A stretch of 64,000 nucleotides of DNA from Palleronia aestuarii (GTDB lineage: Bacteria; Pseudomonadota; Alphaproteobacteria; Rhodobacterales; Rhodobacteraceae): positions 1-64,000 of the forward strand of contig NZ_QKZL01000008.1 of NCBI RefSeq assembly GCF_003253995.1, written 5' to 3'. The notes under the pieces were generated by a model, which saw only the letters and a program-made list of their open reading frames with translations, was not told the origin of the DNA and did no database searches. Shown here piece by piece: positions 2,115-15,605 of the stretch; positions within the stretch are counted from its first letter, which is position 1; every line of letters begins with the position of its first letter. The translations under genes were made by a program, and so were the position numbers.

Positions 2115-3086
2115 TCAGGCGGCGATATGTCGATTTCGCGCGTCCCAGAGCGCGCGCGCGGTGCGGTGCGGGGCATCGACGCCCGCCGCGTCGAGGGCGA
2201 GGGCGGCGGTCGACAGGATGATGGCTTCGGCGAACGGGTGCTGAAGCGTACCGCTCCAGATCTCCGCCAGCGCCTGTGGGTCCGACGGGGCATCGGCGAG
2301 ACGCCTGTGACCGGCGGTGACATGCGGCGCCGTTCCGGTCCAGCGTCGCCCGTCGCGCAGTCCGAAGAGCGCGATGTCTTTGCCGGGATGGTGCTCGAAC
2401 TCGCCGCCACCGCCCTTCAGTACGCTGAGCCGGTCGAGGCCCAGCAGCGCGCCGGCATCGGCCTGAAGCTCCCGGTAGGGTGGATGGAAAACACCTTGTA
2501 CCGCGGCGTGGGCGCCTCCCGGGTTCAGCATTCGGCAGACCGTGTTGATGCAGGAGCGCAGACCAAGCGTATCGCGCAGGCGGAGCAAGTTCATGAGGCC
2601 GGGCGCCAGCGCCTCGAGAGGCAGGTAGGCGATACCGTCATGGGCCAGATCCCGGGCCGCGCCCGTCGGGTCCCGGGCCACGCGCAGGCCGATCATCGGA
2701 AGGGTTGTGCGGACGGAGGCGCCGCGCGACTGGTGACTGTTCCAGCCGTGAAGCAGCACCGGTACGCCCGCGGCCGCCACCAGCCTCGCAGAGAGCAGGA
2801 ACCACGGCAGGCCACGGGTGCGTCCCGCGGCGTAGCACGGCCAGTCGAGCCCGGGGCGCGTTCCGACCCATTCACCAAGCGATGCCTTGGCGGCCGCGGC
2901 AAAGCCCGCGATCTCCTGCGCGGTTTCTCCCTTCATCCGCATCAGCATCAGGATCGCACCGATCGCCTCCGGTGCCGCATCGTGGGCAAGCATCGCCGTC
3001 ATCGCGGCGCGGGCCTCGTCTTGATCGAGCGACCGCGCGCGGCCCTGCCCGCGGCCGAGGATCTGTACGAAGGGGGCGAGGGTCAT
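2115..3086 (-). CDS. TrpD2/YbiB-like glycosyltransferase-fold protein
   Basis: The 323-residue protein resembles the anthranilate phosphoribosyltransferase (TrpD) family, in particular the TrpD2/YbiB-type proteins annotated as glycosyl transferase family proteins. An N-terminal helical part (FVQILGRG, then AMLAHDAAPEAIGAILMLMRMKGET) is followed by an alpha/beta domain with PVLLHGW where TrpD has its glycine-rich substrate loop. The usual TrpD loop GTGGD is not present, so tryptophan synthesis is unlikely. Family members have been linked to nucleic acid binding, but the role here is unknown. The ATG at 3086 overlaps the nasA stop by 4 bases, so it is co-translated with the nitrate genes. An upstream in-frame extension to 3251 lies inside nasA and is not used. 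Confidence 0.75.
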   Translation of the reverse strand: MTLAPFVQILGRGQGRARSLDQDEARAAMTAMLAHDAAPEAIGAILMLMRMKGETAQEIAGFAAAAKASLGEWVGTRPGLDWPCYAAGRTRGLPWFLLSARLVAAAGVPVLLHGWNSHQSRGASVRTTLPMIGLRVARDPTGAARDLAHDGIAYLPLEALAPGLMNLLRLRDTLGLRSCINTVCRMLNPGGAHAAVQGVFHPPYRELQADAGALLGLDRLSVLKGGGGEFEHHPGKDIALFGLRDGRRWTGTAPHVTAGHRRLADAPSDPQALAEIWSGTLQHPFAEAIILSTAALALDAAGVDAPHRTARALWDARNRHIAA

Positions 3087-5683
3087 TCCGCGGCCACGCG
3101 GGCTTGCGCGGCGGTGAGCAGCGCCGCGATCTCGGGGCGGCACGAGCCGCAATTCGTGCCCGCGGACAGCGCCGCGCCGACGGCTTCGACGGTGAGCAGG
3201 CCGTCCGTTTCGATCGCGGTGACGATGGTGTTCATCCCCACGCCGAAACACGAACAGAGGACCGGCCCGGGATCGGGTCGGTCGGCAGGGGCGCGGCCCG
3301 TCAGCGTGTCGGTTTCGGGCAACGTGGTCAGGTGATCGCGCATCACACCCACGGGCTGCGGCGCGATGAAGAGCGCGGCGGCGACGCGTCCCTCGACCCG
3401 CATCGCGATCCGCGCGATGCCGCGGGCCGGATCACTCATGATTTGCGCGTCGGCATCGGGAAGGGCGAAGAGGGCACGTGCGGCGGCCTCCCAGTCTGCG
3501 GGAGCGTTGCGGCCTGCGAGTTCCGCCCGCCAGCCGTTCGGGCTGCGCGCAACGGCCCAGTACTCGCAGGCAGGCGCCATCGGCCCGGCGGAGACGGCGA
3601 AGCCGTACCAGGCGGCCGCGAAGGGACGCGCCGCGCAGATCGTTGCCTTGCTTTCCGGCTGTCCCGAAATCGGATCTGTCGCCGCGGCCACCATCGCGTC
3701 GATCCGGCCCGAGGGGGCGGTCTCCGCGGACCAGTGCATCGGTGAGAAGAGCGTACCCGGCTGCACCGCGTCCGTAATCGTGGCGCGCAGGATTGCGCTT
3801 CCTGTGGGGGACGACACTTCGACCAACGTGTCCGGCGCGATGTGAAGGCGGTCCGCGTCTTCGGGATGGATCTCCACAAAGGGTTCGGCGAGGTGGGCCG
3901 AAAGCCTGGCGGAGCGGCCGGTGCGCGTCATCGTGTGCCAATGGTCGCGTACCCGCCCGGTATTCAGGCGGAATGGATAGCGCGGTTCCGTCTTGCCTAC
4001 AGGCTCGGACCAATGCACGGGGATCATCCGCATCTTTCCATCCGCATGGAAGGCCAGGCCGTCGGCGAAGAAGCGACCCCCGCGGCGCGCGGCGACCGGC
4101 CACCGTGTGGGAGCGAGAGCGTCGTAATCGGCATCGGTCAGGTCCGCGAGACCGGAGATGTCGAAGTCGCGCCCGAGACCGCCGGCGATCCCCGACAATG
4201 CGGCGTGTTCGCGAAAGATTTCGGACGGACCGACATAGTCGAAGGCGTGGGCGTGACCCATGCGGGTCGCCACCTGCGCGATGTGCCACCAGTCGGGTTT
4301 CGCCTGTCCCGGCGGGGTGAGGGCCGCGCGCTGGCGCGAGATCGTCCGATCGGAATTGGTGACCGTGCCGTCCTTCTCGGCCCAGGCCGCGGCGGGCAGC
4401 AGGACGTCGGCGAGCCGCGCCGTATCGGTCGCGTTGGTCACGTCGGAAACCACCGTGAACGGGCACTCGGTGATGGCCTCGCGCACCGCATTGGCTTCGG
4501 GCAAGGTCGCGGCCGGGTTCGTGTGCATGATCCAGAGCGCCTTGACGCGCCCATCTGCCACCGCGCGGAACATGTCGACGGCCTTGAGGCCCGGAGTGGC
4601 GGCAAGGCGTGGCGCAGACCAGAAACCGGCCACGGCCGCGCGATGGGCGGGGTTCTCGATGTCGAGATGGCAGGCGAGCGTGTTCGCCAGCCCCCCGACC
4701 TCGCGCCCACCCATCGCGTTGGGCTGGCCGGTGACGCTGAACGGGCCCATGCCCGGCTTGCCGATACGGCCCGTGGCGATATGGCAGTTGAGAATGGCGC
4801 TCACCTTGTCGGTTCCGCACGTGGACTGGTTCACGCCTTGGCTGAAGACGGTGACCACGCGCTCGGTCCCGATCCACAGGCGGCAGAAGCTTTCGACGAG
4901 ATCGGGAGCGAGCCCGGTAGGCGCGATGTCGGCCGAGCGCGCCGCGGCAAGCGCGGCGTCGAAGCCGGTCACGCTTGCGATGTAACCGTGATCGACCGCG
5001 TCCGCTTCGTGGATTGCCGCAAGGAGCCGATTGAAGAGCGCCACATCCGAGCCGATGGCAAGGGGCAGGTGCAGGTCCGCGCCGTTGCAGCTGGCGGTCC
5101 GACGCGGATCCACGACCACGATCTTCGTGCCGCGCGCGGCCTTGGCGGCCAGGACACGCTGATGGAGAACGGGGTGACACCACGCGAGGTTCGAACCGAC
5201 CAGCACAACTAGGTCGGCGTCGTCGAGATCCTCGTAGGTACCGGGCACCGTGTCGGTGCCGAAGGCGCGTCTATGACCTGCGACCGTCGACGCCATGCAG
5301 AGCCGCGAGTTGGTATCGATATTGGCGGTGCCGACGAAGCCCTTCATGAACTTGTTGGCGAGGTAGTAATCCTCGGTCAGCATCTGCCCCGAGGCGTAGA
5401 AGGCCACGCTGTCCGGGCCGTGGGTCGCGACGGTGTCCGCGAAACGGCGCGCCACGTGGTCGAGCGCGGTTTCCCAGTCGGTCTGGCGCCCACCGATCCG
5501 CGGGGCGAGCAACCGGCCTTCGGTTCCGACCGTCTCGGCCAGCGCCGATCCCTTGGAGCAGAGCCGCCCCCGGTTGGCCGGGTGGTGCGGATCGCCGCGC
5601 ACCTGCAATCCGTCCGCCCCGGGTGCAAGGATCACCCCGCAACCCACCCCGCAATAGGGACAGGTCGAGCGGACCTCGCTCAT
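3083..5683 (-). CDS. nasA: Assimilatory nitrate reductase, catalytic subunit
   Basis: This 866-residue cytoplasmic enzyme should reduce nitrate to nitrite with a bis-MGD molybdenum cofactor. The N-terminal [4Fe-4S] cysteines are visible at residues 8, 11, 15 and 42 (CPYCGVGC, then LCSKG). The molybdopterin oxidoreductase core and the dinucleotide-binding domain follow. A C-terminal BFD-like [2Fe-2S] extension carries VLCSCFG and NCGSC, as in NasA proteins that take electrons from a flavoprotein. No signal peptide is seen. The ATG at 5683 overlaps the nirD stop by 4 bases, and the gene's own stop overlaps the next start. It sits in the nrt-nir-nas operon with its substrate importer and the nitrite reductase. 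Confidence 0.95.
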   Translation of the reverse strand: MSEVRSTCPYCGVGCGVILAPGADGLQVRGDPHHPANRGRLCSKGSALAETVGTEGRLLAPRIGGRQTDWETALDHVARRFADTVATHGPDSVAFYASGQMLTEDYYLANKFMKGFVGTANIDTNSRLCMASTVAGHRRAFGTDTVPGTYEDLDDADLVVLVGSNLAWCHPVLHQRVLAAKAARGTKIVVVDPRRTASCNGADLHLPLAIGSDVALFNRLLAAIHEADAVDHGYIASVTGFDAALAAARSADIAPTGLAPDLVESFCRLWIGTERVVTVFSQGVNQSTCGTDKVSAILNCHIATGRIGKPGMGPFSVTGQPNAMGGREVGGLANTLACHLDIENPAHRAAVAGFWSAPRLAATPGLKAVDMFRAVADGRVKALWIMHTNPAATLPEANAVREAITECPFTVVSDVTNATDTARLADVLLPAAAWAEKDGTVTNSDRTISRQRAALTPPGQAKPDWWHIAQVATRMGHAHAFDYVGPSEIFREHAALSGIAGGLGRDFDISGLADLTDADYDALAPTRWPVAARRGGRFFADGLAFHADGKMRMIPVHWSEPVGKTEPRYPFRLNTGRVRDHWHTMTRTGRSARLSAHLAEPFVEIHPEDADRLHIAPDTLVEVSSPTGSAILRATITDAVQPGTLFSPMHWSAETAPSGRIDAMVAAATDPISGQPESKATICAARPFAAAWYGFAVSAGPMAPACEYWAVARSPNGWRAELAGRNAPADWEAAARALFALPDADAQIMSDPARGIARIAMRVEGRVAAALFIAPQPVGVMRDHLTTLPETDTLTGRAPADRPDPGPVLCSCFGVGMNTIVTAIETDGLLTVEAVGAALSAGTNCGSCRPEIAALLTAAQARVAAE

Positions 5684-6012
5684 GCCGCGCTCCGCCTGTC
5701 GATGGCGTCGCCGTCGATCAGGATGCGGCCATCCTCGATCCGGACGGGATATGTCGCGATGCGCCCCTGGTCGGCACCCTGCGCCTCGCCGGTTTCGAGC
5801 GACCAGACCCAGTTGTGCAGCGGGCAGGTCACCTTGCGGTCGTGGACGATCCCCTCGCTGAGCGGTCCACCCTTGTGCGCGCATGTATTCGAGGTGGCGA
5901 AGATCTCGGTTTCGGTGGTGCGGAAGAGCGCGATGCAGCCCGCATGCGTCTTCACCAGGCGCGCGCCGCGAACCGGAACATCGCCCAATGCGCCAATGTC
6001 GATCCAGCTCAT
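5680..6012 (-). CDS. nirD: Nitrite reductase small subunit, Rieske type
   Basis: This 110-residue protein is the small subunit of cytoplasmic NADH-dependent nitrite reductase. It has the Rieske-like fold with NTCAHKGGPLSEG and CPLHNWVW. These are the two CxH and CxxH cluster-binding motifs, so this NirD probably holds a [2Fe-2S] cluster, unlike the cluster-less E. coli form. It overlaps nirB upstream and nasA downstream by 4 bases each, which supports coupled translation of the three reductase components. Confidence 0.95.
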   Translation of the reverse strand: MSWIDIGALGDVPVRGARLVKTHAGCIALFRTTETEIFATSNTCAHKGGPLSEGIVHDRKVTCPLHNWVWSLETGEAQGADQGRIATYPVRIEDGRILIDGDAIDRRSAA

Positions 6013-8438
6013 TCCGCGGCCTCCAGCGTGAGATCCGCGATGGGCGCGAAGCTCCGCGCGGTCTCGCGGGCGGTGTGCTGCGCCCAGGGGTCCGTCTGGT
6101 AGATGGTCTGGCTGAGATCGAACCGTTCCACCAACGCGCTGCGCGTCGCGGGATCGGACAGCGTGTCTATCACCCAGTCGAGTCCGACCTTAGCGAGCCA
6201 CTTGTAGGGTCGGTCGAGATATTTCGCGTGCTCGCGGTAGAGCTGGACGAAGGCCACCGTCCACTCGACCGTTTCGTCCTCGGTCGCGACCTTGGCAAGG
6301 CGCTCGACTTCCCTCACATCCATGCCCGCCGCACCGCCGACGCCGATCTCGTAGCCGCTGTCGACGCAGACGATGCCCACGTCCTTGCATGTCGCCTCCG
6401 CGCAGTTGCGTGGGCAGCCCGAGACGGCGAGCTTGACCTTGTGCGGCGTCCATGACCCCCAGAGCCGTTTCTCGAGGCGGATGCCGAGACCGGTGCTGTC
6501 CTGTGTGCCGAACCTGCAATGATCGGTTCCGACACAGGTCTTCACGGTGCGCAGACCCTTGGAATAAGCATGTCCCGACACCAGACCGGCGGCGTTGAGG
6601 TCGGCCCAGATGGCGGGCAGGTCTTCTCCCTTCACCCCCAGGAGGTCGATCCGCTGCCCGCCGGTGACCTTGACCGTGGGCACGTCGTATTTCTCGGCGG
6701 CATCGGCGATGGCGCGCAGTTCGGACGCGCTCGTGATCCCGCCCCACATGCGGGGCACGACCGAAAAGGTCCCGTCCTTCTGGATGTTGGCGTGTTTGCG
6801 CTCGTTGACGAAACGGCTCTGCGGGTCGTCGTGATACTCCAGCGGCCAGTCCGCCAGCAGGTAGAAGTTCACCGCCGGGCGGCAGACGTGGCAGCCGTTC
6901 GGCGTGCGCCAGCCGAGTTCCTGCCAGACGGCAGGCTGCGACTTCAGTTCGCGGCTCTTGATGAGGCGGCGCACGTCCTCGTGGCTGAGATCGGTGCAGC
7001 CGCAGACGGGCTGGGCCGCGGTGATCGTGAACGCGTCACCCAGGGTGGCGGCGAGCACCTGTTCGACGAGGCCGGTGCAGGTGCCGCACGAGGCGCTGGC
7101 CTTGGTCGCGCCGCGCACGGCGCCGAGGTCCGTCGCGCCGCCTTCGATGGCCTCGATGATCCGACCCTTGCAGACGCCGTTGCAGCCGCAGATCTCTGCA
7201 TCAGCCGGCAAGGCTGCAACGGCGGCCAAAGGGTCCTGCACGGACCCTCCCTGGTAGGCGGGCCCGAAGATCAGTGTCTCGCGCATCTCCGCGATGTCGG
7301 TCTCGTCACGGATCAGCCCGAAGAACCAATTGCCGTCCGCCGTGTCGCCGTACATCACCGCGCCGACGAGACGGTCGTCCGCCACCACCAATCGCTTGTA
7401 GATCCCGCGCGCGGGATCGCGGAAGACGATGTCCTCGCGACCCTGTCCGTCGGAGAAATCGCCGGCGCTGAACAGATCGCAACCGGTGACCTTGAGTTTG
7501 GTCGAGAGCTGTTTCGGCGTGAAGGCGGCGGGCTCGTCCAGCAGCGTCGCGGCGAGCACCTTGGCCTGATCGTAGAGCGGGGCGACCAGCCCGAAGAGCT
7601 GGCCTGCGAACTCCACGCATTCGCCCACCGCGAAGACGTTCGGGTCGGAGGTTCGCATCTGTGCGTCCACCTCGATGGCGCGACCTACCGTGAGCCCCGA
7701 CGCCTGGGCGAGCTTGACCGAGGGGCGGATACCCACGGCCATGACCACGAGATCGGCCGGCAGGATCGTACCGTCCTCGAGTTCGACCGCTTCGACGCGG
7801 CCCTCGCCCCGGATGCGTGAGGTCGAGGCCTGGGTCATCACGGAAATGCCGCGTCGCTCCAGATCGGCGCGCAGCAGATACCCCGCCGCCGGGTCGAGCT
7901 GGCGATCCATCAGATGTCCGGAGAGGTGCAGGACCGTGACCTCCATCCCGCGCAGACGCAGGCCCGCCGCGGCCTCGAGACCGAGGAGGCCACCGCCGAT
8001 CACCACGGCACGGGTGCCCGGCGGCTGGTCGATCATGCGGTTGGTGTCGTCGAGATCGCGGTAGGAGATCACGCCATCGAGGTCGTGTCCGGGACAGGGG
8101 ATGATGAACGGATCGGAGCCGGTCGCGATCACGAGCCGGTCGTAGGGTACATCGCCAGTCGCGCCCGTGACCACCTTGCGGTCGCGATCGATGTGCTGGA
8201 CGCGTTCGCCGAACCGACAGGTCACGCCATGCGCGGCGTACCAATCGTCGTCATGGGTGACGATCTCGGCATAGCTCTTTTCTCCGGAGAGGACCGGCGA
8301 CAGCATGATGCGGTTGTAATTGCCGCGCGGTTCCGCGTTGAAGAGCGTGACCTCGAACCGCCCCGGCGCGGCCTCGAAAAGATGCTCGAGCAGGCGCCCC
8401 GAGGCCATGCCCGCGCCTATGACAACCAAACGTTCCAT
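6009..8438 (-). CDS. nirB: Nitrite reductase [NAD(P)H] large subunit
   Basis: NirB reduces nitrite to ammonium in the cytoplasm using FAD, Fe-S clusters and siroheme. The 809-residue protein starts with an FAD/NAD-binding domain (VVIGAGMASGRLLEHL). Two BFD-like [2Fe-2S] domains follow at about residues 414-460 (CGCNGVCKG, SCGTC) and 476-520 (CGCTDLS, CHVCRP). The siroheme/[4Fe-4S] half has its cysteines at about 635-641 (TCVGTDHC) and 674-678 (CPRNC). The start is ATG at 8438; longer in-frame reading upstream overlaps the GAF-like gene and is not used. The enzyme needs siroheme, while the cysG at the end of the same operon is truncated. Confidence 0.96.
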   Translation of the reverse strand: MERLVVIGAGMASGRLLEHLFEAAPGRFEVTLFNAEPRGNYNRIMLSPVLSGEKSYAEIVTHDDDWYAAHGVTCRFGERVQHIDRDRKVVTGATGDVPYDRLVIATGSDPFIIPCPGHDLDGVISYRDLDDTNRMIDQPPGTRAVVIGGGLLGLEAAAGLRLRGMEVTVLHLSGHLMDRQLDPAAGYLLRADLERRGISVMTQASTSRIRGEGRVEAVELEDGTILPADLVVMAVGIRPSVKLAQASGLTVGRAIEVDAQMRTSDPNVFAVGECVEFAGQLFGLVAPLYDQAKVLAATLLDEPAAFTPKQLSTKLKVTGCDLFSAGDFSDGQGREDIVFRDPARGIYKRLVVADDRLVGAVMYGDTADGNWFFGLIRDETDIAEMRETLIFGPAYQGGSVQDPLAAVAALPADAEICGCNGVCKGRIIEAIEGGATDLGAVRGATKASASCGTCTGLVEQVLAATLGDAFTITAAQPVCGCTDLSHEDVRRLIKSRELKSQPAVWQELGWRTPNGCHVCRPAVNFYLLADWPLEYHDDPQSRFVNERKHANIQKDGTFSVVPRMWGGITSASELRAIADAAEKYDVPTVKVTGGQRIDLLGVKGEDLPAIWADLNAAGLVSGHAYSKGLRTVKTCVGTDHCRFGTQDSTGLGIRLEKRLWGSWTPHKVKLAVSGCPRNCAEATCKDVGIVCVDSGYEIGVGGAAGMDVREVERLAKVATEDETVEWTVAFVQLYREHAKYLDRPYKWLAKVGLDWVIDTLSDPATRSALVERFDLSQTIYQTDPWAQHTARETARSFAPIADLTLEAAE

Positions 8439-8449
8439 GATCCCGCTCC

Positions 8450-9382
8450 TCAGCAATACCAGGCGACCACGTGGGCAAGCTCGCCGCCCCTGTGGATCGG
8501 AAGCCCTACCATCATCGCATAGCCGCCGGCCGCGGCCCCGGTCTCGACCACCGGTAGTCCGGTGCCGAGAACGCGGCCCACTGGCCCTTCCCAGACATGG
8601 GCCACGCGTTCCTTCCCGGCGTTCTCCGGATCCCAAAGCGGGCCTTCGCGTTCGCAGATGCCGTCGGTCAGCCTCGCCGTCTCGCGGGGGCCGGTCCTGG
8701 CGGCGCGCGCGTCCCAGATCTCGAAGCGGCGTGCGATAGGCGTGCCCTTGGCCGAGAGCAGCGTCAGCACATAGGTCGTGCCGCCCGGCACCGGGACGGG
8801 AAGGCCGAGACCGGTGGTCAGACCCGCCCGGCCCGCGCTTTCGGATCGCACGAACCTGTAGCCGGAACCCAGATCCCGCATCAGGATCGGCGTGTTCGAG
8901 GCCCAGACACCCCCCGGAAGACCTTGGCCACGCGGGAACTGCGTGTGCTGGCTGACCCATTCGAAATGGCTTGCGGCCCCGTAATAGCCGTCGTCGAGGG
9001 TCAGGATACCGTCCGCTTCGGCCCAGACCTCGATGGCACCGGTCCGGGTCGCGTCGTCGGCACAAAGAATGACCAGCACCGCTTTCAGCTTCGACCCGGC
9101 GAAGACGGGAACCGCGACGGCACTGGTCAGGCCGGCCTCCTTCGCCGCCTCGGTGCGCTTGAAGTAGGAGCCGTCGAATTGCTTCAATACGACAGGGCGC
9201 GCCTCGGCCCAAGCCTTGCCCGGCAGACCTTCCCCCTTCGCGAAACTTTCGTCATGCGAAGCGTGCGCGAAGGTGCCATGAGCGCCGTAGACGCCGCCGG
9301 ACAGTACGAGGCGGCCCTCTTCGGGCACCCAGATCTCGGCGACCTCCACGAAAGTTTTCGTCGCCTCCAGAACCGTGTCCAT
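8450..9382 (-). CDS. GAF-like domain protein of the nitrate operon
   Basis: The 310-residue soluble protein appears to contain two GAF-like repeats: KGEGLPGKAWAEARPV and GLTSAVAVPVFAG in the first half, then RGQGLPGGVWASNTPI and GLTTGLGLPVPVP in the second. A shorter third segment follows (GPVGRVLGTGLPVVET). The repeated LPG-W and GL-PV pattern is what one sees in GAF domains that bind small ligands. No output domain is present. It lies between the transporter ATPase and nirB with gaps of 5 and 11 bases, so a sensory or stabilising role in nitrate or nitrite reduction is possible but unproven. I chose ATG at 9382 because GGAG lies 8 bases upstream. GTG at 9391, overlapping the previous stop, is the alternative. 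Confidence 0.75.
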   Translation of the reverse strand: MDTVLEATKTFVEVAEIWVPEEGRLVLSGGVYGAHGTFAHASHDESFAKGEGLPGKAWAEARPVVLKQFDGSYFKRTEAAKEAGLTSAVAVPVFAGSKLKAVLVILCADDATRTGAIEVWAEADGILTLDDGYYGAASHFEWVSQHTQFPRGQGLPGGVWASNTPILMRDLGSGYRFVRSESAGRAGLTTGLGLPVPVPGGTTYVLTLLSAKGTPIARRFEIWDARAARTGPRETARLTDGICEREGPLWDPENAGKERVAHVWEGPVGRVLGTGLPVVETGAAAGGYAMMVGLPIHRGGELAHVVAWYC

Positions 9383-9387
9383 GGAAC

Positions 9388-11058
9388 TCACTCCGCCGCG
9401 ATGGCCGTGTCGGCCGGTTTGGGTTTGGGACGCGCGCCATGCTCGTATTCCTCCAGGAAGTTGAGCACCTGTTCGCGGTAGAGATAGTAGTCGGGGTGTT
9501 CGAGCAGCGCCTTGCGCGAGCGCGGACGCGGCAGGTCCACATCGACGATCCGCCCGATCGTCGCCTGCGGGCCGTTCGTCATCATCACGACGCGGTCGGC
9601 CAGCAGGATCGCTTCATCGACATCGTGGGTGACGCAGATCGCGGTGACCTTGGTGCGGTCCCAGACCTCCATCAGCACCTCCTGCAACTCCCAGCGGGTC
9701 AGGCTGTCGAGCATGCCGAAGGGTTCGTCGAGAAGCAGGAGCTTCGGCGACAGCGCAAAGGCGCGCGCAATGCCGACGCGCTGCTTCATCCCGTTCGAAA
9801 GCTCCGCGGCGGGCTTGTCCATCGCATCTGCGAGGCCCACCCGTTCGAGGTAGTATTCCACCACGTCCTGCCGCTCGGCGCGGGAGGAGCGGGGATACAC
9901 CTTGTCGACGCCCACGGCGCAGTTCTCGCGCGCGGTGAGCCACGGAAAGAGCGACGGAGACTGGAACACCACCGCGCGCTCGGGATCCGCGCCCATCACG
10001 TGCCGCCCGTCGAGCTTGATCGCGCCCTTGGAAATGTCGTTGAGCCCGGCGGCCATGGTCAGCACCGTGGACTTGCCGCAGCCCGAATGGCCGATGAGCG
10101 AGATGAACTCGCCGCGGTTCATCTTGAGATCGAAATTCTCGACCACCGTCAGTGGCCCTTTCGGCGTGGGATAGACCTTGTGGAGCTGGCTGAAGTCGAG
10201 GAACCGCTCTTCGATCATGCCGGTCTGTGCCTCCTTCTGCGCCTTGGGTATTCCGTGGATCGGGGTGACGTTCGGCAGCGTCTTCCTTCCCTGCGCCTCG
10301 GTCTTGATGCCCACATCCATGAGGTAACCGGTGATATCGGCGCGCAGGCGCTTGAACCCCTCGTGATGGTTCATGGCGCCGCGTTCGCGGGGGCGCGGGA
10401 TCGTCACGGTGAACTCCCGCCCGAGCGTGCCGTCCGGGGTCAAGGCGACGATCCGGTCGGCCAGCACGATGGCTTCGTCCACGTCGTTGGTGATGAGGAC
10501 GCAGGTCTGTCTTTCTTCCTGCCAGATCGCCTCGATCTCGTCGGCGAGGTTGGCCCGCGTCAACGCATCGAGCGCCGAGAGTGGCTCGTCCAGCAGCAGC
10601 ACCTGCGGGTTCATCGCCAGCGCACGCGCCACGTTCACCCGCTGCCGCATCCCTCCCGACAATTCGGCCGGGCGTCGGGTGGCGGCATGGGAAAGGCCCA
10701 CCATCTTCACGTAGTGCGCAACCTTGGCGTCCTTCTCCTTGGCGGTCAGTTTCGGAAAGACGGTATCGACCGCGAGACGCACGTTTCCGGTCACGGTCAG
10801 CCACGGCATCAGGGAGTAGTTCTGGAAGATCACGCCACGCTCCGGGCCGGGTCCGGTGACGGGTTGGCCCTTGAAGGTGACACGACCCGTCGTGGGAGGC
10901 TCGAGCCCCGCCATGAGATTGATCAGCGTCGTCTTGCCCGTGCCGGAGAACCCCAGCAGGACGAGGAATTCGCCCTCGGCCACGTCGAGATCGATACCCT
11001 TCAGGACCGCGCTGTCGCCGTAGCTCTTCGAGACGTTTTCGAACGAAAGGATACCCAT
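9388..11058 (-). CDS. nrtCD: Nitrate ABC transporter, fused double ATPase (NrtC/NrtD-like)
   Basis: This 556-residue protein carries two complete ABC ATPase domains in one chain. The first has Walker A GFSGTGKTT, signature LSGGMRQRV and Walker B LLLDEPLSALD. The second, from about residue 285, has GHSGCGKST, the variant signature LSNGMKQRV and LLLDEPFGMLD. In cyanobacteria the two ATPases are separate NrtC and NrtD, and NrtC has a solute-binding-like C-terminal domain that is absent here. The fused dimer would drive nitrate/nitrite uptake with NrtA and NrtB. ATG at 11058 is preferred because GGTGA lies 6 bases upstream; GTG at 11067 would overlap the nrtB stop. Confidence 0.88.
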   Translation of the reverse strand: MGILSFENVSKSYGDSAVLKGIDLDVAEGEFLVLLGFSGTGKTTLINLMAGLEPPTTGRVTFKGQPVTGPGPERGVIFQNYSLMPWLTVTGNVRLAVDTVFPKLTAKEKDAKVAHYVKMVGLSHAATRRPAELSGGMRQRVNVARALAMNPQVLLLDEPLSALDALTRANLADEIEAIWQEERQTCVLITNDVDEAIVLADRIVALTPDGTLGREFTVTIPRPRERGAMNHHEGFKRLRADITGYLMDVGIKTEAQGRKTLPNVTPIHGIPKAQKEAQTGMIEERFLDFSQLHKVYPTPKGPLTVVENFDLKMNRGEFISLIGHSGCGKSTVLTMAAGLNDISKGAIKLDGRHVMGADPERAVVFQSPSLFPWLTARENCAVGVDKVYPRSSRAERQDVVEYYLERVGLADAMDKPAAELSNGMKQRVGIARAFALSPKLLLLDEPFGMLDSLTRWELQEVLMEVWDRTKVTAICVTHDVDEAILLADRVVMMTNGPQATIGRIVDVDLPRPRSRKALLEHPDYYLYREQVLNFLEEYEHGARPKPKPADTAIAAE

Positions 11059-11063
11059 CCCGA

Positions 11064-12140
11064 TCACCGCTGGTTCGTGAAGGTGAAGGCGGCCTGCACC
11101 GCGAACATCAGCCGGTCGAGCAGGAAGCCGATGATGCCGATGGTGAAGACGGCGACCATGATCCGCGCCAGGCTCGACGAGCTGCCGTTCTGAAACTCGT
11201 CCCAGACGAACTTGCCGAGGCCCGGATTCTGCGCCAGCATCTCGGCCGCGATCAGGACCATCCAGCCGACGCCGAGAGACAGGCGCAGACCGGTGAAGAT
11301 CAGCGGCAGCGCCGAGGGCAGGACGAGCTTGGTGATCTTGGTCCAGGTGCCCATCTTCAGGACCTTCGAGACGTTCACCAGATCCTTGTCGATCGAAGCG
11401 ACGCCGAGGGCCGTGTTGATGAGCGTGGGCCAGAGGGAGCAGAGCGTCACCGTGATCGCCGAGACGAGGAACGACTTGGCGAAAAGTCCGTCATTGGTGA
11501 CGTAGACCGCCGAGACGATCATCGTCACGATGGGCAGCCAGGCGAGCGGGCTCACGGGTTTGAAGATCTGGATGATCGGGTTCAGCGCCGCGTTGGCGGT
11601 GGGCGACAGACCGGCTGCGATGCCAAGCGGAACGGCGATCGCCGTCGCGACGAGGAAGCCGAAGAACACCGTCCCGATCGACGTGCGGATCTGCTGATAG
11701 AAGGACGGCGCGCCGGTATAGGCGCGTTCCATGGCCTCCTGTCCGTTCGCGATACGACGTTCGTTCAGGGTGGCGAGCTGTTCCTGGAACCGGGCCCGCT
11801 GCTCTCCCGTACGCACGGCGTCGGCATGCAGCCCCCGTGCCTCGCTCCAGACCTGCACCGGTCCCGGGACGGCGCCGAGCGAGGTTTGGACCTGCGGCGC
11901 CAGCACGCCCCAGAGCGCCAGGAAACCGACGATGGCCAGAAGGGGCACGCCGAGGAGGCGCCAGATCTCCGAAAGTTGCGCCTTGGGGTTGTCGCCCGCA
12001 GCGGCCCGCAGGAGCGGTGTGACAAACGACAGGCCGAGGACGTTGAACCACGCGTCGGCCTTGTTGATGCGGGTGAACCAGAGGGCGCGGCGTGCCTCGC
12101 GGTGCTGTGCTTCGAGGGCGTTCGGATCGACGGCGGTCAT
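11064..12140 (-). CDS. nrtB: Nitrate ABC transporter permease
   Basis: The 358-residue inner-membrane protein is the permease of the nitrate importer. A first hydrophobic helix (LLAIVGFLALWGVLAP) is followed by a charged, probably periplasmic stretch of about 75 residues rich in Glu, Arg and Gln. The BPD transporter core has about five further helices, with the EAA-like loop near ALGVASIDKDLVNVSKVLKM contacting the ATPase. The long insert after helix 1 is typical of the alphaproteobacterial form. The start is ATG at 12140, with an 80-base gap to nrtA. Confidence 0.9.
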   Translation of the reverse strand: MTAVDPNALEAQHREARRALWFTRINKADAWFNVLGLSFVTPLLRAAAGDNPKAQLSEIWRLLGVPLLAIVGFLALWGVLAPQVQTSLGAVPGPVQVWSEARGLHADAVRTGEQRARFQEQLATLNERRIANGQEAMERAYTGAPSFYQQIRTSIGTVFFGFLVATAIAVPLGIAAGLSPTANAALNPIIQIFKPVSPLAWLPIVTMIVSAVYVTNDGLFAKSFLVSAITVTLCSLWPTLINTALGVASIDKDLVNVSKVLKMGTWTKITKLVLPSALPLIFTGLRLSLGVGWMVLIAAEMLAQNPGLGKFVWDEFQNGSSSSLARIMVAVFTIGIIGFLLDRLMFAVQAAFTFTNQR

Positions 12141-12220
12141 GATGCGTTCCCGAAAAGTGCAGATGGGGTTTCGAAGGCGTCCGGGGGACGGGTGCGCGAA
12201 TGTCCCGCGCACCCGATCGA

Positions 12221-13588: not shown

Positions 13589-13631
13589 GTCGTCGTTCCA
13601 TCTTGGGCCGCCGTGGGGCCGGCCAAACACG

Positions 13632-13682
13632 AAAAAAGCCGCTGACGCACTTCGCCGTTGAGGCGAAGGGTCGAGCGGCTTT
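13632..13682 (-). terminator. Leader terminator upstream of nrtA
   Basis: On the minus strand AAAGCCGCT pairs perfectly with AGCGGCTTT, enclosing a second perfect stem TTCGCC/GGCGAA with loop TCAAC. It runs directly into a U tract (six T residues). This is a strong factor-independent terminator 44 bases before the nrtA start, between nasS and the nrt-nir-nas operon. Its place makes it the natural target of NasT antitermination. Confidence 0.85.
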
Positions 13683-13712
13683 GCTCATCGTCCCGGTCGT
13701 TCGGGTGTGGGA

Positions 13713-13824
13713 GTGCGATCGGCCCCGTTGCCTGTCGCACCACCGTCATGCAGTCGTCCGGACGGGAAACGGAAGAGCTTTTTCGTTCGCAACCGCAGGC
13801 TGCGCTGCATTGCGGCAGCGAACG
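13713..13824 (-). promoter_or_regulatory. Candidate ANTAR (NasT) tandem hexaloop leader element
   Basis: ANTAR regulators such as NasT bind two successive hairpins with six-base loops that have A at position 1 and G at position 4. On the minus strand, 13713-13740 folds as GTGCGA/TCGCAC with an inner GGC/GCC stem and the loop AACGGG, which fits. The hairpin at 13784-13824 has a 7-bp outer stem CGTTCGC/GCGAACG, an inner 6-bp stem and a possible AGCGCA loop, which also fits, although its last two base pairs are weak. Both lie just after nasS and upstream of the terminator. The 43-base linker between them is longer than in the textbook cases. Confidence 0.6.
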
Positions 13825-13851
13825 GCGCTCCTGCCGACGAAATGGGCAGTA

Positions 13852-15024
13852 TCAGAACACCGGATCGAACGTGCGTCCGTCGAAGAAGCTGTCGCGGAAC
13901 AGGACCGTATCTCCTCGGGTAGCAGCGACCGGCGAATCGCAGGCCAAGGCCCCTTCAATCCGCGACGAAGCCGCGGGCAGCTCGGCACCCGTATTCTCCA
14001 GCGCCGCGCGGTAGAGGTCGCTGCGGAACACCGCGCGGGCGGAGGCTGCGGCCTCGTCGCGGTCGAGCCCCGTACGTGCGGCGAGCTGGCCGCCGATCCA
14101 CGCCGCCTGGCTGCGCCACGGGAAGTTCGCCTGCCCTGCGTGGAACGCGACGAACCGGGGGGCTGTCTGGGTCTCGCCGGTCCGGGCAAGGATCAGGCGT
14201 CCGGACAATCCACGCTCGACAAGCTCCGGCGAGATGTCGAGATGGGTTGGACGCGACAGGAGTTCGGCTGCGAGCGACCGGCCGTCGGCGGTGTCGAGCC
14301 AGCGCCCCGCGCGCCAAACCGCACGGATCAGGCGGCTGGACAGGTCCGGATTGGCCTCGGCCCAGTCGCGGCGCACCGCGAGGATCTTTTCGGGTGCGTA
14401 GGCCCAGATGGCGCTTCCGGGAAGCAATAGCTCGCCCATTCCGCTCTCGACGGCTTTCGACCCCCAGGGCTCGCCCACGCAGAACGCGTCGATCTCGCCC
14501 GCCCGGACCGCGTCGGCCATCAACGGGGGCGGCACGGTACGGACGGAGAGGCTTTGCGGGCTGGGGCGGCCCAGCGCGGAGAGCCAGTAGAAAACGAGTT
14601 CGGCATGCATGGAGAACGGGAACGGCACGCCGATCCGCAGCGGCTCGGGCGCTGCCGCGATCAGGGCCTGCCCGGCGGCACGCGCATTGGCGAAATCGAA
14701 GGCATGCCCCGCATCCCGCATCCGACGGGCGAGATCCCGACTGACACCCACGACCGTCCCGTTCATCGACAGGACCGACAGCGCGTCGAGGGGAGCTGCC
14801 CCGCCACCCAGACCGAGCGCCATGGCCACCGGGACCGGCGCCAGCATGTGGGCCGCCGTCACCTGCCCGAAGGTCAGCGCGTCGCGGGCCGAGGACCACG
14901 ACGGCGCGCGGTGAAGGTTGAGCGCCAGTCCTTCCTCGGCTGCGAAACCCATTTCCTGGGCGACGAGAAGCGGGGCGGCGTCCAAGAGCGGCATGAAACC
15001 GATGTCGATGCCGGACGCCTTCAT
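13852..15024 (-). CDS. nasS: NasS nitrate/nitrite sensor
   Basis: This 390-residue protein is an NrtA-like nitrate-binding protein without a signal peptide (it begins MKASGIDIGFMPLLDAAPLL), so it works in the cytoplasm. In known systems NasS holds NasT inactive until nitrate or nitrite binds, when NasT is released. It shares with NrtA the CVGEPWGSKAVESGMG block near residue 180. The ATG at 15024 overlaps the nasT stop by 4 bases, fitting a 1:1 complex. The leader RNA of nrtA begins right after its stop. Confidence 0.92.
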   Translation of the reverse strand: MKASGIDIGFMPLLDAAPLLVAQEMGFAAEEGLALNLHRAPSWSSARDALTFGQVTAAHMLAPVPVAMALGLGGGAAPLDALSVLSMNGTVVGVSRDLARRMRDAGHAFDFANARAAGQALIAAAPEPLRIGVPFPFSMHAELVFYWLSALGRPSPQSLSVRTVPPPLMADAVRAGEIDAFCVGEPWGSKAVESGMGELLLPGSAIWAYAPEKILAVRRDWAEANPDLSSRLIRAVWRAGRWLDTADGRSLAAELLSRPTHLDISPELVERGLSGRLILARTGETQTAPRFVAFHAGQANFPWRSQAAWIGGQLAARTGLDRDEAAASARAVFRSDLYRAALENTGAELPAASSRIEGALACDSPVAATRGDTVLFRDSFFDGRTFDPVF

Positions 15025-15605
15025 TCCAGCAATCTCGCGGCCGTGATCAGCGCTTCGGCCACATCGGCGACGCGGCGGCCCTGGTCCATCGCCGTGCGGC
15101 GCAAGAGGGCGTAGGCCTCGTCCTCGGGAAGACCACGGGCGCGCATCAGGAGACCCTTGGCCCGGTCGATCACCTTGCGCTCCTCGAGGGCGCGCTTGGT
15201 CTCGGCCAGTTCCGTACGCATTCGCGCCATCAGGCGGAACCGCGCGATGGCCGCGTCGAGCACGGGCTTCACCCGCGTGCGTGTCAGGCCGTCGACGACG
15301 TAGGCCGACAACCCCGCCTCGATCGCCGCGGTCGACAGCCCCTCCGCGCTGCGTTCGACGAAGAGCGCCACGGGCCGGTCGAGCGGTCCCGTCGCAAGGG
15401 TCAATTCCTCGATGATGTCACGGGACGGATCGGCGACGTCGATCAGCACGACGTCCGGATTGACCTTGGCGATCTGTCGCGCCAGCGCGGCGCGCTCGGC
15501 GATGATGTGAACCCGATAATCGGCGTTGTCGGTCAGGGCGTCGACGATGAAACGGGCCCGTTCGGGATCGGGTTCAACGACGACGATTGTGAGCGGTTCG
15601 AGCAT
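15021..15605 (-). CDS. nasT: NasT ANTAR-domain antiterminator
   Basis: The 194-residue protein has an N-terminal receiver-like domain (acidic pair near residues 11-13, Asp56 in VLIDVAD) and a C-terminal ANTAR RNA-binding domain (about 125-190, RKVIDRAKGLLMRARG). NasT acts by binding a two-hairpin leader RNA and preventing termination. Control is through NasS rather than phosphorylation. Here it heads the nasT-nasS pair, and a fitting leader lies just downstream. The start is ATG at 15605. Confidence 0.93.
   Translation of the reverse strand: MLEPLTIVVVEPDPERARFIVDALTDNADYRVHIIAERAALARQIAKVNPDVVLIDVADPSRDIIEELTLATGPLDRPVALFVERSAEGLSTAAIEAGLSAYVVDGLTRTRVKPVLDAAIARFRLMARMRTELAETKRALEERKVIDRAKGLLMRARGLPEDEAYALLRRTAMDQGRRVADVAEALITAARLLE

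Follow-up and report, generated by a model that had tools for sequence, protein, structure and literature searches.

The gap between nasS and nrtA in Palleronia aestuarii raises the question of whether its transcript acts as a leader RNA through which the regulator NasT controls the downstream genes and, if so, which RNA hairpins NasT would recognise. ANTAR proteins, of which NasT is a predicted member, are widespread. The gap was studied within a DNA stretch of 64,000 nucleotides (hereafter, the window). A first-pass annotation had proposed a NasT antitermination leader, with hexaloops carrying A at position 1 and G at position 4 (A1/G4) and a terminator before nrtA, and conservation and covariation strongly support this predicted element. 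Our best explanation, to which we give a probability of about 0.88, is that the nasS-nrtA gap is a transcription-attenuation leader that NasT would control by binding to it. We view it as a three-hairpin variant of a known mechanism, because it agrees with that mechanism in each testable feature but linker length.

Gene context of the leader

The minus strand carries all of the relevant genes, in the order nasT, nasS, gap, nrtA, nrtB, nrtC/D, GAF protein, nirB, nitrate-reductase-like gene and cysG. The first gene, nasT (15021-15605), encodes a receiver-like and ANTAR-domain protein, a predicted RNA-binding antiterminator (Pfam PF03861, 4.3e-22). It overlaps by 4 nt with nasS, which encodes an NrtA-like nitrate sensor (PF13379, 1.2e-60) whose closest named relatives are those of Palleronia pelagia (82%) and P. 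abyssalis (80%). After a gap of 263 nt comes nrtA, encoding a nitrate-binding protein (PF13379) and predicted to be the first gene of the regulated operon. Gene coordinates thus bear out the placement of the leader directly 3' of nasS (15024-13852) and ahead of nrtA (13588-12221). Further downstream are the nrtB permease gene (11064-12143; TIGR01183, 1.5e-44, below its cut-off, and PF00528), the fused nrtC/D ATPase genes (9388-11067; TIGR01184, 6.8e-179), a gene for a GAF-domain protein (8450-9391) and the nitrite reductase gene nirB (6009-8450, start codon putative; TIGR02374, 3.8e-253). These are followed by an open frame for an assimilatory-nitrate-reductase-like molybdopterin enzyme (3083-5884; PF00384, 6.4e-68; NF047855, 2.8e-122, below cut-off) and by a C-terminally truncated siroheme synthase gene, cysG (969-2102; NF007922, 1.6e-110, below cut-off). 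The CysG product matches profile positions 2-353 of 450, and the next frames show no clear continuation by eye.

NasT has the composition of a NasT-type ANTAR regulator, with a receiver-like and an ANTAR domain and nasS adjacent, the receiver match being weak (20.4 bits, below the Pfam cut-off of 30.2). Residues 7-187 of its 194 align with EutV (6wsh) and its C-terminus with NasR (4akk); it also matches AmiR (1qo0). A tyrosine and a methionine are reported to contact the hexaloop in EutV (PMC8934654), and a tyrosine and a methionine of NasT align with this pair. One further ANTAR protein (52.4 bits) is encoded in the genome, on another contig (C43:2256-2414, locus L149).

Anatomy and folding

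Three hairpins follow one another in the folded leader (all minus strand). Hairpin 1 (P1, 13713-13740) is GUGCGAcaGGC[AACGGG]GCCgaUCGCAC, with its loop at 13729-13724; the A1/G4 hairpin with an AACGGG loop that had been proposed is therefore real at 13740-13713, and its loop is conserved in relatives. A 7-nt linker (13706-13712) leads to the middle hairpin (M, 13692-13705), CCCG[AACGAC]CGGG, with its loop at 13701-13696, where relatives mostly have an RNGAY pentaloop. After a 5-nt linker (13687-13691) comes hairpin 2 (P2, 13673-13686), GAGC[AAAGCC]GCUC, the predicted antiterminator hairpin, which has bases in common with the terminator. All three loops carry A at position 1 and G at position 4, and P1 [AACGGG] and P2 [AAAGCC] each qualify as a stem-loop of at least 3 pairs with a six-base A1/G4 loop, as in the ANTAR two-hairpin target RNA (Ramesh 2012).

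The intrinsic terminator ahead of nrtA was also correctly foreseen. Its hairpin (13636-13681), whose arm pairing is kept in relatives, has a 5' arm, AAGCCGCU, that starts within the P2 loop, and a 3' arm, AGCGGCUU, that leads into a U6 tract (13632-13637), the whole spanning 13681-13632. The P2 loop and the 3' half of P2 thus double as the terminator 5' arm. A simple promoter/terminator consensus scanner did not list this terminator (one terminator-like site, versus 2.4 in shuffles), probably because its stem is interrupted.

The folding energy of the whole leader (-122.5 kcal/mol, z -4.09) is below that of 200 out of 200 shuffles. As the transcript lengthens, the predicted probability of the closing pair is 0.86-1.00 for P1, M and P2 up to the emergence of the last arm. 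The P2 closing pair, at 0.97-1.00 before the terminator arm emerges, falls to 0.00 after, and enforcing P1, M and P2 gives a structure 12.2 kcal/mol less stable than the terminator form (-42.8 versus -55.0 kcal/mol). P2 is thus predicted to overlap and exclude the terminator.

The first-pass annotation had read the leader differently: AGCGCA and AACGGG would be two NasT loops 43 nt apart, with the terminator a separate structure. Both loops do occur in the minimum-energy fold of the window, but AGCGCA is closed there by only two base pairs, and it lies in a conserved TGC.GCA dyad that looks more like a DNA site. The check on the conservation of the two loops has a split outcome: AACGGG is conserved, whereas in only 1 of 79 relatives (L090) does AGCGCA form a hexaloop with 3 or more pairs, and there on another stem. 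It is AAAGCC, not AGCGCA, that overlaps the terminator and is nearly invariant. AGCGCA was accordingly rejected as the second loop on conservation, and we consider this version hardly credible. AACGGG is instead partnered by AAAGCC, the hexaloop within the terminator 5' arm, in the classic ANTAR arrangement. The 43-nt linker was correctly computed for the two hairpins chosen (13784 to 13740), but it involved the wrong partner loop: the apparent length arose from the choice of a non-conserved loop, and the puzzle disappears because a third hairpin intervenes, leaving linkers of 7 and 5 nt. Neither CCCG[AACGAC]CGGG (13705-13692) nor GAGC[AAAGCC]GCUC (13686-13673) had been noticed. Other A1/G4 hexaloops upstream of P1 are scattered, and several of them are readings of the TGC.GCA dyad.

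Conservation and covariation in Rhodobacteraceae

In a NasS-alignment scan of species genomes, the best 80 of 376 loci were kept. The order nasT-nasS-gap-nrtA is present in 79 of these best 80 named loci, with gaps of 243-287 nt and nrtA genes 78-95% identical over the matched stretch. Palleronia marisminoris (L044) has nasT-nasS and no nrtA match downstream. The 79 named relatives and the window form a conservation set of 80 gaps.

The P2 loop, found with an anchor that left the loop letters free, has G4 in 80/80 gaps and A1 in 79/80. The P1 loop is A1/G4 in 72 of 80 gaps, versus 17 of 181 control hexaloops in upstream intervals; here, the best hexaloop in the expected interval was taken by a position-limited picker blind to loop letters, which was used instead of an earlier, wider one that took the wrong P1 in several rows. 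Among the eight P1 picks that are not A1/G4, four (L057, L095, L096, and L099) come from gaps in which the picker overlooked an AAUGGC loop, and the other four (L051, L059, L066, and L110) have G1 with G4. Over the 80 gaps, we counted 129 hairpins with an A1/G4 hexaloop and at least 4 Watson-Crick pairs, against 8.3 +/- 3.0 in dinucleotide shuffles, while all other hexaloops amount to 155 against 138. The terminator is kept in 75 of the 80 gaps, defined as a 3' arm pairing with P2 at 7 or more of 8 positions plus a T tract; five gaps failed this test.

Covariation was assessed on an alignment (A2) of 70 sequences, namely the window and 69 of the 79 other gaps. Left out before any counting were three gaps with an extra hairpin (L062, L072, and L092), the four with a mis-picked hairpin (L057, L095, L096, and L099) and three near-duplicates (L060, L090, and L101). 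In A2, the P1 loop has A1 in 66/70 sequences and G4 in 70/70. The closing pair is C-G in 69/70 sequences for P1 and in 70/70 for P2, so that both hairpins have the features of the consensus reported for NasR by SELEX, namely a C-G closing pair, A1 and G4 (PMC7496416). There are 114 pair-keeping double changes in A2, versus 42.8 after shuffling, a value that 0 of 500 shuffles reach; when partners are slid by 1-3 columns, only 6-43 double-change cells remain. P2 hardly varies, as expected for a stretch that serves two structures.

These results bear on another reading, in which the gap is a plain constitutive terminator acting as an insulator between nasTS and the nrt operon, its hexaloops being accidental. 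A terminator is present, and an operator-like dyad in the gap (see below) suggests that the nrt operon has its own promoter. However, the A1/G4 loops exceed shuffles 15-fold while other loops are near expectation, the P1 stem covaries around a loop that remains mostly AANG, and copies of the element are also found ahead of cysG, apart from nasTS (see below). An insulator of this kind is very improbable.

A CCTCC motif occurs in the terminator loop region, 34 nt after P2, in 45 of the 80 gaps (the window not among them), versus 3 of 240 control intervals. It resembles what we take to be the anti-Shine-Dalgarno or 'cuckoo' RNA motif of Rhodobacter. Translational control has been reported for the nas genes of Paracoccus denitrificans (PMC5424462), and the CCTCC motif might relate to such control.

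The middle hairpin and other alphaproteobacteria

A CCC...GGG-type hairpin lies between P1 and P2 in most gaps. The 28 nt before P2 have a mean fold z of -1.45 relative to shuffles, with 52 of the 80 gaps below -1. Run on the same MAFFT alignment, RNAalifold predicted P1 and P2 and not the middle hairpin; in the hexaloop group, MAFFT misplaces the middle hairpin by one column, and its pairing percentage is thus probably too low. The loop has six bases (AANGAC-like) in the Palleronia group and elsewhere mostly five (RNGAY).

The middle hairpin may be a spacer or an RNA polymerase pause element rather than a protein site, a reading that we regard as a serious possibility, somewhat short of an even chance. 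It is favoured by the near-fixed distance between the P1 loop and P2, which is 32-42 nt in 77 of the 80 gaps as picked and in 76 after correction of L099 (49 nt), and by the fact that the three exceptions with distances of 58, 66 and 66 nt (the gaps L062, L072, and L092, in no stated order) have an extra hairpin between the middle hairpin and P2. A pure spacer, however, needs no conserved letters, and the middle loop in A2 keeps G in 66/70 sequences, A in 58/70 and a pyrimidine in 68/70.

We also examined 55 regions lying 3' of nasS on plasmids and in the rest of the class, four of which (L150, L178, L182, and L183) belong to Rhodobacterales. Downstream of nasS in 27 class loci, A1/G4 hexaloops number 39 versus 4.0 +/- 2.0 in shuffles, and other hexaloops 79 versus 64. 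An automatic test recognised the P2-in-terminator arrangement in 24 of the 55 regions and in 77 of the 80 Rhodobacteraceae gaps. In three cases of each set, two more A1/G4 hexaloops (at least 4 pairs) were present; these are undercounts, since inner stems of 3 pairs are ignored. The test mis-chose P2 in L016, L151, and L181. An A1/G4 hexaloop lies 0-8 nt from P2 in nine loci (L152, L153, L165, L169, L174, L180, L195, L197, and L201), and an upstream one lies at 25-39 nt in 12 loci, at 19 nt in L179 and at 14 nt in L181 (with P2 mis-chosen). Both spacings are found together in L153, L195, and L197. The middle hairpin of the window therefore occupies the position at which other lineages have a canonical hexaloop, and the middle loop of most Rhodobacteraceae may be a shortened version of it. 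In L161 and L162, there are two separated groups of A1/G4 hexaloops (at least four hairpins) 3' of nasS, and only the second group adjoins the terminator.

These comparisons raise another possibility: NasT may dock on the middle hairpin as a third site, which would make the leader a three-step relay and not a two-hairpin element with a spacer. The middle loop of the window, AACGAC, is itself A1/G4; three A1/G4 hexaloops occur in a row in other lineages (L183, L180, L153, L195, and L197), among them those of Rhodobacter sp. CZR27 and Sinorhizobium mexicanum; and the hexaloop at 0-8 nt before P2 has a C-G closing pair in 9/9 of the other loci that have one. The EutV dimer reportedly grips a single hexaloop at a time, cycling from P1 to P2 (PMC8934654), and P. 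denitrificans NasT, once freed, is reported as about six monomers (PMC3795266). Against a third docking site, most Rhodobacteraceae have a five-base RNGAY loop there, the closing pair varies among relatives (A-U, U-A, G-C) while P1 and P2 keep C-G, and at least one cysG leader (L243) has no middle hairpin by eye. In the window, the closing pair is G-C rather than the C-G selected in SELEX, which makes the middle hairpin a doubtful NasT site. On balance, a third docking site is possible, with the odds leaning against it. Its extension to alphaproteobacterial NasT leaders in general is more tentative still, and we hold it to be rather unlikely: these leaders would be three-hairpin relays made of a loading hexaloop, a modified middle site (AACGAC/RNGAY) and a terminator-embedded hexaloop, along which one or more NasT dimers would step on the nascent RNA to reach P2 before the terminator closes.

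A small predicted regulon

In Rfam, no family matched the leader at gathering score, and even a search at E up to 10 brought no fitting one. The covariance search suggested by the first-pass annotation thus did not succeed with existing models, but it did with our own model (R1), which has one strong site in this genome, at 55.7 bits and in the window. The next two places score 20.8 and 20.3 bits, followed by 17 further weaker matches among those listed. At these two places, there is no T run of at least 4 on either strand (450 nt) and no NasS, NasT or NrtA match nearby, and we therefore take them as chance. Scores of 20-26 bits are nonetheless not safely attributed to chance, as in another genome (G645) a 20.0-bit place is found some 320 nt 3' of nasS, and L195, which has real hairpins, scores 24.0 bits.

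In the family, 96 of 295 genomes have an R1 site at E up to 1e-5, for a total of 104 places, and 91 of these are located within 400 nt 3' of a nasS match, although this search is not an independent test, as many genomes are probably of the same species as the source loci of R1. All 13 other places were fetched. Seven precede cysG, each being a second copy in its genome; cysG was identified by a family search for L235 and by BLASTP to L235 for the other six. Four precede nrtA without lying directly behind nasS in the fetched stretch or the listed nasS places. Another (L245, 29.6 bits) precedes the gene of a nitrite-reductase-like flavoprotein, by eye. The last one (L244, 29.3 bits) lies inside an ABC-transporter gene, by eye, and was judged false and dropped.

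Class-wide, 50 of 385 genomes have an R1 match at E up to 0.01. Of 30 loci fetched, four represent nasTS-nrtA leaders (L111, which is the window, L119, L120, and L121) and one, L142, adjoins nasTS; the remaining ones have no nasTS-nrtA neighbours. R1 thus predicts a small nitrate regulon in Rhodobacteraceae, comprising the nrt operon and, where it stands apart, cysG, whose product supplies nitrite reductase with its cofactor. Within the window, no gene identified on this strand follows cysG in the series, in keeping with the presence of just one strong R1 site. The literature matches listed included no paper dealing with ANTAR leaders of three hairpins or with NasT control of cysG in Rhodobacteraceae.

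Candidate promoter and operator signals

The dyad that covers the AGCGCA loop (TGC.GCA / TGC-N11-GCA, 13801-13817) is conserved. TGC-N1-GCA occurs in 47 of the 80 gaps versus 8.7 in shuffled ones, an excess that is somewhat flattered because this dyad came top in a screen of all trinucleotide dyads with gaps of 0-19; TGC-N11-GCA, which emerged from the same screen, occurs in 27 of the 80 gaps versus 8.2. For TGC-N1-GCA, 44 of 52 occurrences are located 60-105 nt upstream of the P1 loop. The dyad is a putative DNA operator, perhaps NtrC-like, a tentative label that leans in part on a site quoted in PMC5424462. The dyad hints at a promoter inside the Rhodobacteraceae gap. A promoter consensus scan of the window gap returned no sigma-70-like site, and no promoter was identified. 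Readthrough from nasT-nasS feeding the nrt operon is possible.

Elsewhere in the class, a sigma-54-type site (TGGCA[CT]-N7-GC) was found in 20 of the 55 nasS-downstream regions, versus 1 of 55 on the reverse strand. Such sites are present in L160, L165, L169, L174, L188, L197, L201, and others, and several directly precede hairpins. As none of the 80 Rhodobacteraceae gaps contains one, a sigma-54 promoter is not the explanation for the window.

Proposed mechanism

Under our preferred reading, a NasT-controlled attenuation leader, P1, the middle hairpin and P2 would fold in succession as the polymerase moves through the gap. If P2 were left unheld, the arm AGCGGCUU would capture the P2 loop and 3' half, the terminator would form and transcription would stop before nrtA. 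Nitrate or nitrite would free NasT from NasS, and the freed NasT would then dock on the upstream hexaloop or hexaloops and hold P2. With P2 held, no terminator would form, and the nrt genes, nirB, the nitrate-reductase-like gene and cysG would be transcribed. The middle hairpin could serve as a spacer keeping P1 near P2, or as a third dock.

Comparison with known systems

Paracoccus denitrificans has the same regulator pair, NasS-NasT, and the same gene position, in front of an operon (nasABGHC) that differs from that of the window. Its NasT is reported to bind nasA leader RNA, and NasS-NasT to dissociate on nitrate (PMC3795266). We found hexaloops AACGGC and AAUGAU in the nasS-nasA gap; over the 420 nt examined, its hairpins are not followed by any T tract of 4 or more. 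R1 did not recognise this gap, scoring just 13.8 bits on P. denitrificans, at a place outside it. Growth on nitrate is reported to depend on one hairpin of the gap, HI, located 137 bp before nasA (PMC5424462). Judging by its position, HI may correspond to the AAUGAU-loop hairpin, whose start lies 134 nt ahead of nasA in the strain examined here. In Bradyrhizobium, NasT is reported to act by antitermination at leader hairpins of nosR, nirA and coxS (PMC6759348), so that its targets there are denitrification and other genes; the likeness is one of description rather than of sequence.

The Klebsiella nasF leader offers another parallel, as nitrate controls antitermination there through an ANTAR protein acting on a tandem hairpin, and would do so here. 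NasR is nevertheless a single protein with its own nitrate domain, whereas NasS would sense and NasT bind here, and the window leader has an extra middle hairpin.

Published ANTAR targets are described as pairs of A1/G4 hexaloops, the second inside a terminator (PMC3369931, PMC7496416). The Enterococcus faecalis eut leaders of EutV share with the window the A1/G4 hexaloops, a second hairpin in the terminator 5' arm and mutual exclusion (predicted here). They are reported, however, to have two hairpins with linkers of 5-12 nt (PMC3369931), whereas the window has three, its P1 and P2 stems being 26 nt apart with a hairpin between them; the linkers (7 and 5 nt) fall within that range only when the middle hairpin is treated as a unit in its own right. 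As a lengthened linker is reported to have abolished induction by EutV (PMC3369931, PMC8934654), the P1-P2 spacing of the window would exceed the working range of EutV unless the middle hairpin bridges it. The natural leaders of this family have two, three or perhaps four hairpins, near-fixed spacing and a distinct middle loop. They allow direct tests of the hand-over model, and so of how a dimer that reportedly binds single hexaloops would handle several hairpins.
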